From NCBI RefSeq assembly GCF_900115785.1, contig NZ_FOYS01000001.1, positions 124,001 through 188,000 on the forward strand: a stretch of DNA of 64,000 bases, given 5' to 3'. The notes under the pieces were generated by a model. The model did no database searches and had not been told where the DNA came from. It saw only the letters and a list, made by a program, of their open reading frames with translations. The position numbers were made by a program, and so were the translations under genes. This DNA comes from Halogeometricum limi (GTDB lineage Archaea > Halobacteriota > Halobacteria > Halobacteriales > Haloferacaceae). Shown here piece after piece: positions 19,057 through 54,253 of this stretch (position 1 is the first letter of the stretch; every line of letters starts with the position of its first letter).

Positions 19057-19674
19057 ATGAACGGAAGCGACCTCGCAGACGGCGTTCGCGACGACCACGA
19101 GACGGCGTTCTCGCGCCTCGGTTCCTCGAAGGCACTGTACGCACTCACCGGCGGCGAGATGGAGGCCGACGCGGTCCGAACCGCCGCGGCCGACGACGAC
19201 CACGAACTCGCCGACGTCCTCGAAGACTGGGCCATGGTCGAACACGGCGACGCCGCCCCCCTCCTCGCGGACCTCGCGGAGGCGGCGCGCGAACGCGCCG
19301 AGTCGGTCGAACCCGACGGCTACGAACGGAGCGACGCCCCCGAGATGTACGACCGTCTCGCGTTCGAGGACGACACGGTCGGTCGCGTCGGCGGCCTCCT
19401 CGGTCGCTACCTCGTCTCCGCGAAGTACGTCGAACAGATGGTCGGCTTCTTCGTCGGCGACGCCGACCCGAAGGCCGCAGACGAGTTCCGCTCGATTCGC
19501 TCGGCGGTCGAGGACGAACGCGACCGCGTGATAGCCCTGCTCGACGGCGTATGCGACTCCGACGACGACTGGGACGCCGCCCGCGAGGCCGCCGACGGCG
19601 TCGTCGAGGCCGCCTACGACGACTACGTCGAGACGCTCGAAAGTATGGGCGTGAAACCGAAGAACGTCTGCTAG
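19057..19674 (+). CDS. Conserved haloarchaeal helical protein, rubrerythrin-like
   Basis: This 205-residue, very acidic protein is almost fully alpha-helical in composition: DDHETAFSRLGSSKALYAL, ADVLEDWAMVEHGDAAPLLA, YLVSAKYVEQMVGFFVGDAD and FRSIRSAVEDERDRVIALLD. Such long amphipathic helices with paired Glu and His look like a four-helix bundle of the ferritin/rubrerythrin type. The ExxH iron ligands are not complete, so iron binding is unproven. ATG 19057 is the only sensible start. The gene ends exactly at the start of a cloverleaf-like inverted repeat, which may act on its transcript. No function is proposed. Confidence 0.7.
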   Translation: MNGSDLADGVRDDHETAFSRLGSSKALYALTGGEMEADAVRTAAADDDHELADVLEDWAMVEHGDAAPLLADLAEAARERAESVEPDGYERSDAPEMYDRLAFEDDTVGRVGGLLGRYLVSAKYVEQMVGFFVGDADPKAADEFRSIRSAVEDERDRVIALLDGVCDSDDDWDAAREAADGVVEAAYDDYVETLESMGVKPKNVC

Positions 19675-19786
19675 GAGCTTTTTGCAGATTCGGGTCGCGC
19701 GGAGCGCGACCACTCTCGCGAGAACGCCTCGCGTTCTCGCTGGCTCACGAGACGTTATGCGTCTCGTGAACATCGCAAAAAGCTCC
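19674..19786. repeat. Cloverleaf-like inverted-repeat element A
   Basis: The arms GGAGCTTTTTGC (19674-19685) and GCAAAAAGCTCC (19775-19786) pair perfectly over 12 bases. Between them lie three perfect hairpins: GGTCGCGC/GCGCGACC (19693-19711), GCGAGAACGC/GCGTTCTCGC (19718-19740) and TCACGAGACG/CGTCTCGTGA (19745-19769). Together they form a four-stem cloverleaf. It starts at the last base of the preceding stop codon. TCCACCAAAAA follows at 19784-19794, then another 9-bp hairpin (19799-19828). A related copy exists at 54079. The element could be a terminator, a processed RNA or a non-autonomous mobile element; sequence alone does not decide. Confidence 0.8.
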
Positions 19787-19846
19787 ACCAAAAACATCCC
19801 GCGAGGCTCGCGTTCGCTCGCCTCGCGGTACGGCACCGGTGCGGTC

Positions 19847-19936
19847 ACCGCATCCGCTACCGCCACCGCATCCGCTACCGCCACCGCATCCGCTACCGCC
19901 ACCGCATCCGCTACCGCCACCGCATCCGCTACCGCC
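19847..19936 (+). repeat. Five tandem 18-bp repeats
   Basis: ACCGCATCCGCTACCGCC is repeated exactly five times without spacers, then decays into CTCGGCTTC. It sits after cloverleaf element A and before a dispersed ORB-like motif. No reading frame through it looks like a gene. The perfect identity of the units suggests recent slippage, so the copy number probably varies between strains. Confidence 0.9.
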
Positions 19937-20012
19937 ACCGCCTCGGCTTCTCCTCCGCTCTCGACGTTCTCCTCCACCCCGCTACCGGTCAGATTCTGCA
20001 AATCGTTCTCAT

Positions 20013-20047: not shown

Positions 20048-20320
20048 TCAGACGCCTTCGACGCCCTTGCGGTACTCGAACACCTTGTCGCGGGCGGCGG
20101 TGACGCGTTCGCTCACGTCGCCCTCGGTGGTCTCGGCTATCTCGGCGAGGATGTTCATGTGTCGGTCGAGTCGGCCGTGGTCGGGGCCGCGTTCGGCGTC
20201 GGCCAGTTTCGACAGGGCGTCGGCTTGCTCCGCGAGTCGGTCCCGTACCCCGTCGTCGTCGCTGGCGTCCGCCGCCGCGTTCAGGTCGTCGCTCGCCGCC
20301 GCGAGTAACTCTCGTGTCAT
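20048..20320 (-). CDS. Small conserved haloarchaeal helical protein
   Basis: This 90-residue acidic protein is made of three amphipathic helices: TRELLAAASDDLNAAADASD, RDRLAEQADALSKLADAERG and VTAARDKVFEYRKGVEGV, joined by polar loops. DRHMNILAEIAETTEG lies between the last two. Such short all-helical proteins (probably DUF7553) are widespread in haloarchaea and have no known function. It has no signal or membrane segment. The gene is divergent from uvrB (132 bases apart), so the two may share a control region; no specific motif was seen there. Confidence 0.75.
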   Translation of the reverse strand: MTRELLAAASDDLNAAADASDDDGVRDRLAEQADALSKLADAERGPDHGRLDRHMNILAEIAETTEGDVSERVTAARDKVFEYRKGVEGV

Positions 20321-50491: not shown

Positions 50492-53400
50492 GTGCACGAA
50501 GACGACGAACGGTACTTCGCGCGCATCGAGGACCGTCTCGACGAGGCGTTCGACCGCGCCCGCGCCGCGAAGGGACAGGGGCGTGACCCGCAACCCGAGG
50601 TCGAGATTCCGGTCGCCAAAGACATGGCCGACCGCGTCGAGAACATCCTCGGTATCCCCGGCGTGGCGGAACGCGTCCGCGAGTTGGAAGGGCAGATGTC
50701 CCGCGAGGAGGCCGCCCTCGAACTCGTCAACGACTTCGTCGAGGGGAGCGTCGGCGACTACGACTCCCGCGCCGGGAAGGTCGAAGGCGCGGTGCGGACG
50801 GCCGTCGCCCTCCTCACCGAGGGCGTCGTCGCCGCGCCCATCGAGGGCATCGACCGCGTCGAAATCTTAGAGAACGACGACGGCACCGAGTTCGTCAACG
50901 TCTACTACGCCGGCCCGATTCGCTCCGCCGGCGGGACCGCACAGGCGCTCTCGGTCCTCGTCGCCGACTTCGCCCGGTCGCTTCTCGGCATCGAGGAGTA
51001 CAAGGCGCGAGACATCGAAGTCGAGCGCTACGCCGAAGAGGTCGCTCTCTACGACAAGGAGACCGGACTGCAGTACTCGCCGAAGGACAAGGAGACGAAG
51101 TTCATCGCAGAGCACATGCCCATCATGCTCGACGGCGAGGCGACGGGCGACGAGGAAGTCTCCGGGTTCCGTGACCTCGAACGCGTCGACACCAACTCCG
51201 CCCGCGGTGGGATGTGTCTGGTCATGGCCGAGGGTATCGCGCTGAAAGCCCCGAAGATTCAGCGCTACACCCGACAACTCGACGAAGTCGACTGGCCGTG
51301 GTTGCAGGACCTCATCGACGGCACCTACTACGAGGGCGGCGGGGCGGACGACGGCGACGGCGACGGCGACGAAGACGACGCGGCCGAGGACGCCGACGCG
51401 GCCGACGAGACGCCCGAGGACGCCGTCGAAGACGCCCCGGAACCGGCCGGTCCCGCCCGCGTCGACCCCGCGAGCAAGTACCTCCGCGACCTCATCGCCG
51501 GGCGTCCCGTCTTCGGCCATCCGAGCGAGGCGGGCGGGTTCCGCCTCCGCTACGGCCGTTCCCGCAACCACGGCTTCGCGACGGCGGGCGTCCACCCCGC
51601 AACGATGCACCTCGTCGACGACTTCCTCGCGACGGGGACGCAGATAAAGACCGAACGTCCCGGGAAGGCGGGCGGCGTCATCCCCGTCGACTCCATCGAG
51701 GGGCCGACGGTCAGACTCGCCAACGGCGACGTGCGGCGCATCGACGACCCCGAGGAGGCGCTGAAAGTGAGAAACGGCGTCGAGAAGATTCTGGACCTCG
51801 GGGAGTACCTCGTCAACTTCGGCGAGTTCGTCGAGAACAACCACCCGCTCGCACCCGCGTCGTACGTCTACGAGTGGTGGGTTCAGGAGTTCGAGTCCGC
51901 GGGTGCACCGGTCCAAGCCCTCGAAGACGACCCGCGAATCGACCTCGAACATCCGACGGCCGAACAGGCGTTCGAGTGGGCCACCGAGTACGACTGCCAT
52001 CTCCACCCCGACTACACCTATCTCTGGCACGACATCACCGTCGACGAGTTCGAGACGCTCGCGGACGCCGCGGCGGGCGGACGAGTCGTCGAGTCCGACG
52101 GCGGCGTCGTCCTCGAACCCGACGACGCAGACTCCACCGACGGCGTCCTCGAACTCGACCGGACCGAGGAACTCACCCGACTGCTCGAACACCTCCTCGT
52201 CGAGCACACCCAGACCGACGAGACGCTCCGGATTCCGGAGTGGCGACTGTTCGCGCGTTCGCTCGGTCTCACAGCGTCCTTAGAGATGACCTGGGACGAC
52301 CTCTCCGCGGAGGCCCGCCAGTGGGCCGGCGGCGACAACGCCGTGAAGGCCGTCACCGAAGTCGCCCCCTTCGACGTGCGCGAACGCGCTCCGACCCGAA
52401 TCGGCAACCGGATGGGTCGCCCCGAGAAATCCGAGTCGCGGGACCTCTCGCCCGCGGTCCACACGCTGTTCCCCATCAGCGAGATGGGCGGGAACCAACG
52501 CGACGTCGGCGAGGCGGCCCGCGCGCGAAACGAACAGGGCGTCCGCGGCGAACTGAACGCCCTCGTCGGTGACCGCGAGTGCCCCGACTGCGGCGCGCAC
52601 ACGTTCAAGAACCGCTGTCCCGACTGCGAGACGCACACCGAACCGCACTACGAGTGCGAGGAGTGCGGTACCGTCGTCGAACCCGACGAGTCCGGTCGCG
52701 TGTTCTGCGAACGCTGCGAACGCGAGGTGGAGAGCCCCGACTGGTTCTCCATCGACCTCTCGACGGAACTCCGTTCGGCGTTAGAGAACGTCGGCGAACG
52801 CGAGTCCTCCTACCCCATCCTGAAAGGCGTGAAGGGACTCACCTCGGCGAACAAGACGCCCGAAGCCATCGAGAAAGGCATCCTCCGGGCGAAACACGGC
52901 GTCTCCTCGTTCAAAGACGGGACCGTCCGCTACGACATGACCGACCTCCCAGTCACCTCGGTTCGCCCCGCGGAACTCGACGTCTCCGTCGACCACTTCC
53001 GCGAACTCGGCTACGAGACGGACATCGACGGCGAACCCCTGCGGTTCGACGACCAACTCGTCGAACTGAAAGTACAGGACATCGTCCTCTCGGACGGCGC
53101 GGCCCAACACATGCTGAAGACGGCCGACTTCGTCGACGACCTCCTCTCGAAGTTCTACGGTTTAGAGCCGTTCTACGACGTAGAGGAACGAGACGACCTC
53201 ATCGGCGAACTCGTGTTCGGGATGGCCCCGCACACCTCCGCGGCCGTCGTCGGGCGCGTCGTCGGATTCACGTCCGCGGCCGTCGGCTACGCCCACCCGT
53301 ATTTTCACGCCGCCAAGCGGCGGAACTGCGACGGCGACGAAGATTGCGTCATGCTCCTCATGGACGGCCTCCTGAACTTCTCGAAGGAGTTCCTCCCGGA

Positions 53401-54079
53401 CAAGCGCGGCGGGCAGATGGACGCCCCGCTCGTGATGTCCTCGCGCATCGACCCCTCGGAGATTGACGACGAGGCGCACAACATGGACATCGTGCGCCAG
53501 TACCCCGAGGCGTTCTACGAGGCTTCCTTAGAGATGGCCGACCCCGGCGAGGTGGAGAACCTCATCCAACTCGGCGAGGACACCCTCGGCACCGACGACG
53601 AGTACCGCGGGTTCGACCACACCCACGACACCACCGACATCGCCCTCGGCCCGGACCTCTCGGCGTACAAGACGCTCGGGTCGATGATGGACAAGATGGA
53701 CGCGCAACTCGAACTCGCGCGGAAACTCCGCGCCGTCGACGAGACTGACGTGGCCGAACGGGTCATCGAGGGGCACTTCCTCCCGGACCTCATCGGGAAC
53801 CTCCGCGCGTTCTCCAGACAGGAGACGCGCTGTCTCGACTGCGGCGAGAAGTATCGACGGATGCCGCTGACCGGCGACTGCCGGGAGTGCGGCGGCCGAG
53901 TCAACCTCACCGTCCACCAGGGGTCGGTGAACAAGTACATGGACGTCGCCATCGAGGTGGCCGAGGAGTTCGGCTGTCGCGACTACACGAAACAGCGACT
54001 CGAAGTCCTCGAAAAGAGCCTCGAATCGGTCTTCGAGAACGACAAAAACAAGGCCTCGAAGTTGGGCGACTTCATGTAG
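50492..54079 (+). CDS. polC: DNA polymerase D large subunit (DP2)
   Basis: This is the catalytic subunit of the archaeal replicative polymerase, 1195 residues, with GTG start. The catalytic Asp pair lies in NCDGDEDCVMLLMDG (Asp947 and Asp949). N-terminal conserved segments are YYAGPIRSAGGTAQALSVLV and FRLRYGRSRNHGFATAGVHP. Two zinc-binding regions follow: CPDCGAHTFKNRCPDC and further CxxC pairs at about 690-750, and CLDCGEKYRRMPLTGDCREC near the C-terminus. An acidic, low-complexity insert is at about 287-325 (GDGDGDEDDAAEDADAADET). The frame is continuous with no intein, which several haloarchaeal DP2 genes carry. It ends at a cloverleaf-type element. Confidence 0.97.
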   Translation: MHEDDERYFARIEDRLDEAFDRARAAKGQGRDPQPEVEIPVAKDMADRVENILGIPGVAERVRELEGQMSREEAALELVNDFVEGSVGDYDSRAGKVEGAVRTAVALLTEGVVAAPIEGIDRVEILENDDGTEFVNVYYAGPIRSAGGTAQALSVLVADFARSLLGIEEYKARDIEVERYAEEVALYDKETGLQYSPKDKETKFIAEHMPIMLDGEATGDEEVSGFRDLERVDTNSARGGMCLVMAEGIALKAPKIQRYTRQLDEVDWPWLQDLIDGTYYEGGGADDGDGDGDEDDAAEDADAADETPEDAVEDAPEPAGPARVDPASKYLRDLIAGRPVFGHPSEAGGFRLRYGRSRNHGFATAGVHPATMHLVDDFLATGTQIKTERPGKAGGVIPVDSIEGPTVRLANGDVRRIDDPEEALKVRNGVEKILDLGEYLVNFGEFVENNHPLAPASYVYEWWVQEFESAGAPVQALEDDPRIDLEHPTAEQAFEWATEYDCHLHPDYTYLWHDITVDEFETLADAAAGGRVVESDGGVVLEPDDADSTDGVLELDRTEELTRLLEHLLVEHTQTDETLRIPEWRLFARSLGLTASLEMTWDDLSAEARQWAGGDNAVKAVTEVAPFDVRERAPTRIGNRMGRPEKSESRDLSPAVHTLFPISEMGGNQRDVGEAARARNEQGVRGELNALVGDRECPDCGAHTFKNRCPDCETHTEPHYECEECGTVVEPDESGRVFCERCEREVESPDWFSIDLSTELRSALENVGERESSYPILKGVKGLTSANKTPEAIEKGILRAKHGVSSFKDGTVRYDMTDLPVTSVRPAELDVSVDHFRELGYETDIDGEPLRFDDQLVELKVQDIVLSDGAAQHMLKTADFVDDLLSKFYGLEPFYDVEERDDLIGELVFGMAPHTSAAVVGRVVGFTSAAVGYAHPYFHAAKRRNCDGDEDCVMLLMDGLLNFSKEFLPDKRGGQMDAPLVMSSRIDPSEIDDEAHNMDIVRQYPEAFYEASLEMADPGEVENLIQLGEDTLGTDDEYRGFDHTHDTTDIALGPDLSAYKTLGSMMDKMDAQLELARKLRAVDETDVAERVIEGHFLPDLIGNLRAFSRQETRCLDCGEKYRRMPLTGDCRECGGRVNLTVHQGSVNKYMDVAIEVAEEFGCRDYTKQRLEVLEKSLESVFENDKNKASKLGDFM

Positions 54080-54153
54080 GACCTTTTTGCTGACTCGGGT
54101 TTCCTCGCGTCGCCTTCGGCGACGCTGCGGGAACCCTCGTTGCAAAAAGCTCC
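54079..54153. repeat. Cloverleaf-family inverted-repeat element B
   Basis: Arms GGACCTTTTTGC (54079-54090) and GCAAAAAGCTCC (54142-54153) pair at 11 of 12 positions. A perfect inner hairpin GCGTCGCC/GGCGACGC (54107-54125) sits inside a weaker GGGTTTCC/GGGAACCC stem (54097-54136). TCCACCAAAAA follows as in element A, then hairpin CCACAGAC/GTCTGTGG (54166-54196). Short tandem C-rich units with GCTCCGCCGCCGCA repeated twice (54212-54241) come next. It begins at the last base of the polC stop codon. The shared ends, linker and position identify it as a relative of element A, although the inner hairpins differ. Confidence 0.75.
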
Positions 54154-54253
54154 ACCAAAAATCTCCCACAGACTCGGCCTTCGGCCTCGTCTGTGGTGCG
54201 ACATCCTGACTGCTCCGCCGCCGCACCGCTCCGCCGCCGCATCCGCCCTGCTT

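Follow-up and report, generated by a model that had tools for sequence, protein, structure and literature searches.

A Composite Cloverleaf in Halogeometricum limi: a Haloarchaeal Gene-End Element Carrying an Inserted Double-Hairpin Repeat

The cloverleaf at positions 19674-19786 of the window (the whole stretch of 64,000 nucleotides that was analysed) is a composite rather than a unique structure: a gene-end element (GEE) of haloarchaea that carries a double-hairpin repeat (DH) in its 3' internal loop. The outer stem, arm 1 and the ACCAAAAA that follows make up one copy of the GEE, and the DH supplies arms 2 and 3 as an insert of 56 nt. The anatomy of the GEE, its existence as a family, its covariation, its placement and the insertion of the DH are all demonstrable from the sequences compared below.

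Results

Structure of the locus

The features of the locus, together with those of a second GEE in the window, are as follows (R1 denotes the GEE covariance model described in the next section).

19057..19674, + strand: upstream gene, 205 aa, stop codon TAG at 19672-19674 (home-made gene caller)
19674..19685, + strand: left arm of the GEE, GGAGCTTTTTGC, with the sense T5 at 19679-19683
19686..19692, + strand: 5' internal loop, with the conserved TCG at its end
19693..19711, + strand: arm 1, hairpin belonging to the GEE itself, triloop GGA, 8 bp
19715..19770 (equally 19716-19771), + strand: DH insert, 56 nt, consisting of arms 2 and 3, delimited by alignment with the insert-free copy L031
19718..19740, + strand: arm 2, DH hairpin A, GCGAGAACGC/GCGTTCTCGC, 10 bp, loop CTC
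19745..19769, + strand: arm 3, DH hairpin B, TCACGAGACG/CGTCTCGTGA, 10 bp plus a T-G pair
19775..19786, + strand: right arm of the GEE, GCAAAAAGCTCC, with a minus-strand T5 at 19777-19781
19787..19794, + strand: ACCAAAAA, with the second minus-strand T5 (TTTTTGGT)
19799..19828, + strand: distal GC-rich hairpin of the GEE, 9 bp
20048..20320, - strand: convergent downstream gene, 90 aa (home-made gene caller)
50492-54079: polC, 1195 aa, uninterrupted (NCBIfam TIGR00354)
54078..54162, + strand: second GEE of the window, long-hairpin class, R1 score 55.7 bits, directly after polC

The two genes that flank the cloverleaf were called with a home-made gene caller which was trained on 44 open reading frames of the window and is error-prone (it called the window DH "intragenic" on the antisense strand), and neither gene matches an NCBIfam model. 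The protein of the upstream gene, which is TorD-like by eye only, is matched in 27 of the 40 genomes searched, its own included. The stretch that separates the convergent gene from the GEE is in part made up of tandem 18-nt repeats (CCGCTACCGCCACCGCAT), at 19836-19961 of the window.

The sequence-only reading of this DNA had described a perfect 12-bp outer stem that begins with the final base of a TAG stop codon, encloses hairpins of 8, 10 and 10 bp, and is followed by ACCAAAAA and a further 9-bp hairpin, and had held that such stacking could not be due to chance. The whole of this description is recovered: the outer stem (19674-19685 with 19775-19786) is perfect over its 12 bp, its first base is the G of the TAG, and the two further components follow at 19787-19794 and 19799-19828. 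The argument against chance also holds. The minimum free energy of the segment 19660-19840 is -95.1 kcal/mol, compared to -63.7 +/- 4.2 kcal/mol in 200 shuffles (z -7.5), and none of the 64 perfect 12-bp stems with a span of 30-150 nt found in 20 Markov-resampled windows has three hairpins of at least 8 bp inside it, while the real window contains one stem of this kind, that at 19674-19786. The name "cloverleaf" fits the composite copy in the window but not the family at large, since most GEE copies have one arm.

The GEE family

Read in the sense direction, a GEE consists of a stop codon, nCCASC-TTTTT, an internal loop ending in TCG, a hairpin arm, R-CTC, AAAAA-KCTGG, ACC-AAAAA and a distal hairpin; a hairpin similar to the distal one in the window stands after many other copies. 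The inner module comes in three forms: a single hairpin, a set of three, or one long hairpin that bears GGGTTTCCTCG/CTGYGGGAACCC. In its own genome the GEE has 13 matches by a BLAST-type search and 22 by a pattern search for which a reversed-pattern control gives 7. The covariance model R1, built from eight one-arm copies, identifies 15 distinct places of this genome with E<=0.01 (matches on both strands at one place being merged), two of which lie in the window (19673-19795 and 54078-54162). It has matches in 45 of 60 genomes (the own genome and relatives), and the number of GEE matches per genome is uneven, ranging from 0 to 38. The existence of this family rules out a single-copy structured RNA. 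Tandem duplicated short GEE-like copies, with an N run (assembly gap) between them, are present at G000:C8:424663-424823 (L020/L021).

A sample of 157 genomes from the phylum contains R1 matches in 26. Among the 26 sampled members of the order, 16 are matched, some at full length, and 10 have no match under the strict filters applied. A spread to methanogens was considered and rejected: the matches outside the order are T5/A5 hairpins of 33-41 nt without arms, which were taken as ordinary hairpins. The exact 18-mer AAAAAKCTGGACCAAAAA occurs in at least 119 stretches, and Haloferax, Halorientalis, Halococcus, Haloarcula, Natrinema, Natrialba and Halorussus are represented among the matches listed; 69 of the 73 haloarchaeal loci found by means of this 18-mer have an R1 match at E<=0.01. 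Non-haloarchaeal records that contain the 18-mer give, among the matches listed, only short hits, mostly 32 nt and never more than 55 nt in length, which were likewise taken as ordinary hairpins.

No Rfam covariance model has a match in the window at its gathering score, the best sub-threshold match (13.6 bits, E 5) being to a viral frameshift element. Rfam also found no ncRNA gene upstream of the repeated left contexts of Natrialba/Natrinema-type genomes in 16 loci. Neither the GEE nor the DH is described in those parts of the literature that were covered by the search, which included PMC12306157, PMC3404096 and the motif letters, most subscription journals lying outside its scope.

Covariation and sequence constraint

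The sequence-only reading had proposed that other copies be examined for compensatory base changes in the stems, and such changes are present. The alignment used (A4) comprises 79 GEE copies and draws on 71 of 78 loci, L039, L042, L047, L049, L050, L001 and L002 having been dropped beforehand. Double changes occur in 14 of 20 pairs, in 206 cells compared to 71 in shuffles; in a model of three cloverleafs 10 of 41 pairs are doubly changed, and it was from this model, in work that took in ten loci picked by eye, that the second repeat, the DH, was recognised. The 1507 pair cells of the 79 copies comprise 1373 Watson-Crick, 19 G-U and 115 other cells, with 15 of the 19 G-U cells confined to two pairs at which the alignment of the long-hairpin copies is poor. 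The outer pairs vary with compensation (67 CG and 12 GC in one; 49 CG, 27 GC and 2 AT in another), and the five T:A pairs remain T:A in 74-79 of 78-79 copies.

The sense T5 is intact in 73 of the 79 copies, the A5 of ACCAAAAA in 68, and all three T5/A5 tracts in 64, while the TCG of the internal loop is kept in 72 and the CTC in 76. Mismatches beside the T5 are common (C-C in 53 of 79 copies, C-T in 22), which suggests that sequence outweighs pairing at this position. Both strands of the GEE fold equally well. The possibility that the TCG/CTC loop forms a kink-turn on the minus strand was judged by eye only, and was unsupported.

Placement and conservation of sites

Placement was evaluated for 85 copies (the 79 of A4 and six with three hairpins) against a control of 1540 random intergenic positions in the same loci. 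In 53 of the 85 copies a stop codon ends within -3 to +6 nt of the left edge, compared to 34 of the 1540 control positions; together with the intact T5 in 73 of 79 copies, this gives the oligo-T just after the gene that is typical of an archaeal T-tract terminator. A position 22-45 nt outside a minus-strand start codon is occupied by 14 copies (161 control positions), nine copies stand directly after duplicated tRNA 3' ends, and the other nine are placed differently (1345 control positions). The contexts of the first set (n=88), as assigned by the home-made gene caller, include 31 that are convergent and 25 that are sense-tandem. In several leftward-tandem contexts the stop of the right gene lies 39-75 nt past ACCAAAAA, which leaves room for the distal hairpin, and 12 contexts that were picked by eye as divergent-looking have no obvious gene 3' end on the left.

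At L114, L116, L109, L133, L117, L118 and L146 the 3' end of a tRNA is duplicated downstream of the tRNA and is followed by a GEE. Several of these duplicated ends are preceded by an inverted copy of the T-arm and a conserved AGGGA..hairpin..GACCGT, and the arrangement looks like a small att-like insertion between a tRNA and its terminator.

In all five Halogeometricum genomes searched, the own genome included, a GEE stands directly after the stop of polC. Its module at this site is the long hairpin in the window, one hairpin in three genomes and three hairpins in G004. After the window's upstream gene there are three hairpins here, one in G004 and another module in G001 and G003, and after the orthologue of this gene there is a simple hairpin in G011, which lies outside the genus, and none in G002. 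A test of closest copies was carried out on 43 copies at the genus level (G011 included), the genomes concerned having about a hundred model matches in all; the orthologous site also carries a GEE for 23 of these copies, and the orthologue is the closest copy in only one case. Taken together with the differing modules after polC, this indicates that the GEE site is kept and the cassette replaced or homogenised. The polC matches themselves are split in many relatives, with open frames of up to 2294 aa, probably by inteins.

The double-hairpin repeat

Outside the 56-nt insert, the core of the window GEE differs from that of L031, an insert-free copy in the same genome, by one loop base and one compensated pair. 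Alignment with one-arm copies reveals the same 56-nt insert at the same place in the window copy, L002 and L334. Because the place of insertion is identical, these three copies may descend from one composite. L043 and L334 have a related hairpin pair between ACC and AAAAA.

The layout of the DH is nCGTC-rYCAGAACGC(nnn)GCGTTCTGr-TTGGC-(hairpin B)-AACGTC. The corresponding model, R3, matches the window at 19711-19774 (82.3 bits) and has matches in 51 of the 60 genomes, with at most 69 per genome; in the phylum sample it is found in 22 of the 26 order members and in none of the 131 other genomes. The three places in the own genome at E<=1e-6 (C8:143711, which is the window copy, C8:900378 and C5:333070) are all in GEEs.

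A sample of 69 DH loci (L433 having been dropped as a duplicate of L384) contains 12 copies in frame inside genes, 6 in GEEs, a class to which the window DH was moved by hand from "intragenic", and 51 elsewhere. The encoded peptides resemble V-H/D-ES-x-SDSLANQNAxRSGD. In an aldehyde dehydrogenase (ALDH) 23 DH residues, and in a short-chain dehydrogenase (SDR) 22, are absent from the best PDB relatives, and the Pfam domains of both proteins run on at both sides of the DH; the repeat thus shares with Rickettsia-type intragenic palindromic elements the in-frame insertion of residues missing in homologues. Related short-chain dehydrogenases of two genera carry the DH in frame at the same place (L373 in G031 and L425 in G010).

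At L340 (G033) and L339 (G045) triloop hairpins form long tandem arrays in which the linkers alternate, and at L340 four of these hairpins lie in frame within a gene. Similar flanks surround DH copies in several places or genomes (L377, L388, L426 and L428; L400, L402, L409, L412 and L414), which indicates that the DH is there part of a larger repeat or of a conserved site. Within the GEE, the DH is probably a passenger that is tolerated by the folded middle of the element.

Discussion

It is reasonably probable that the GEE serves as a bidirectional transcription terminator or insulator between transcription units. A rightward polymerase leaving the left gene would meet a T5 right after the stop codon and stop there, a leftward polymerase would be stopped by two T5 tracts that it reaches after the GC-rich distal hairpin, and the folded middle would keep the two directions of transcription apart; a GEE that lies outside a promoter would shield it. 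We infer termination at the T5 tracts in vivo, and some binding partner for the invariant loop. In favour of this function stand the placement of the copies, the T:A pairs that stay fixed beside covarying outer pairs, the intact T5/A5 tracts and the GEE site kept after polC. In the parts of PMC7237163 consulted, T5C terminates 95% in a Haloferax reporter and a hairpin 59%, and the first 3' UTRs of Hfx volcanii have a median length of 97 nt. This median counts against termination, because it far exceeds the distance from stop codon to T5 here, as do the position of the sense-strand T5 ahead of the hairpin and the invariant TCG/CTC loop, which termination does not explain, and the 10 of 26 sampled order members that gave no match under strict filters; the 12 hand-picked divergent-looking contexts count against a simple terminator.

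A more ambitious reading, which we consider doubtful, is that the GEE is the one dedicated two-sided punctuation element at haloarchaeal transcription-unit borders of every orientation, its TCG/CTC loop being read by a putative factor, and that archaeal palindromic repeats lodge there and in frame in proteins and build composites. Should these readings of the GEE and the DH hold, haloarchaea would have a gene-border signal that is recognisable and annotatable by model, archaeal bidirectional termination or insulation would be directly testable at hundreds of natural sites, and archaea would supply a further case of in-frame insertion of palindromic repeats into proteins. Kept sites with swapped cassettes would be an unusual mode of evolution for a terminator.

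The finding that the closest copy is not the orthologue in 22 of 23 cases (43 copies compared) could also be expected if the GEE were a selfish mobile palindromic repeat of the REP, SMR or PATE kind, found in gene ends because it is harmless there. The uneven copy number (0 to 38 per genome) and a similarity that extends about 10 nt beyond the distal hairpin point the same way, and the parts of PMC3119063 consulted describe PATEs and SMR-A as haloarchaeal mobile elements with a palindromic structure. Mobility of the GEE itself is nevertheless unlikely: its terminal pairs vary with compensation, leaving no fixed inverted repeat, occupied sites are common to different species, and a 67-nt single-arm copy matches no plasmid or phage. 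A separate search gave three partial plasmid matches over 32-50% of the query. A Y1 transposase was rejected as the mobiliser, since its counts show no correlation, judged by eye, with those of the GEE; G002, G010, G011, G013 and G039 have 0 Y1 and 13, 18, 16, 12 and 33 GEE matches respectively, while G009 has 8 Y1 and 0 GEE matches. The suggestion of a folded mobile end in the sequence-only reading survives in part. Arms 2 and 3 do belong to a palindromic repeat that has been inserted, but the analysis turned up no transposon end, and the outermost pairs of the GEE are not constant.

The same reading had also noted a likeness to a structured RNA. Such an RNA might lie in the 3' UTR of the upstream mRNA and act in its stability, in protein binding or in regulation. 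Strong covariation, the conserved unpaired TCG/CTC loop and a U-G pair retained in many long-hairpin copies agree with this possibility, but G-U pairs are nearly absent, both strands fold equally well and the T5:A5 block is fixed, all of which speaks for a role at the level of the DNA or of both strands rather than for a plain structured RNA made from one strand. Copies moreover stand outside promoters and after tRNAs, and with a T5 right after the stop the transcript should end ahead of the structure; we regard such an RNA as quite improbable. The E. coli BIMEs bind gyrase, and the GEE might analogously be a DNA element, a cruciform or protein-bound hairpin concerned with chromosome topology, for which termination would be a side effect. 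Covariation that is Watson-Crick only, triloops and placement at boundaries would suit an element of this kind, which does not predict the fixed orientation of the T5 and for which no binding protein is known, and we consider it highly improbable.

Comparison with known systems

The REP/BIME elements of E. coli are palindromes at gene ends, and the GEE resembles them in this respect; it differs in that no link to a RAYT was seen and in that its T5 tracts are fixed. The GEE does not show the co-occurrence with Y1 (TnpA/RAYT) of an IS200/IS605-derived PATE or a REP with RAYT, nor does it have the constant terminal inverted repeat of an SMR or MITE. Like the T5C/hairpin terminators of Hfx volcanii, as presented in the parts of PMC7237163 consulted, it has a T5 followed by C within two bases at gene ends, and hairpins occur near some of the Hfx volcanii termination sites; unlike these, it is a conserved palindrome made of several parts, in which both strands carry T5, the internal loop is fixed and a distal hairpin is added, and no family of its type is described in those parts of the paper.

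The DH shares with SMR-A and PATE of Haloquadratum, again as far as the consulted parts of PMC3119063 go, the character of a short transposase-free palindromic repeat without target duplication, and the insertion of one kind of repeat into the palindromes of another. Compared by description only, SMR-A is about 110 bp long with prominent terminal inverted repeats and members that are commonly >95% identical, while the DH is 56-64 nt long and diverged. The CGTC-tagged REPs, for which only bacterial phyla are named in the parts of PMC3733652 consulted, have stems of 8-9 bp and loops of 4-5 nt, where the DH has stems of 10-11 bp and triloops. CGTC stands at one end of the DH in 59 of 69 copies, its hairpins are paired and sometimes lie inside genes, as in the CGTC-tagged REP dimers of that report, including Rickettsia RPE-4/RPE-6, and it resembles these REPs also in sitting at times in larger palindromes and in having no dedicated transposase that could be found. 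The best reading of these likenesses is that the DH is an archaeal counterpart of the REP/RPE palindromes.
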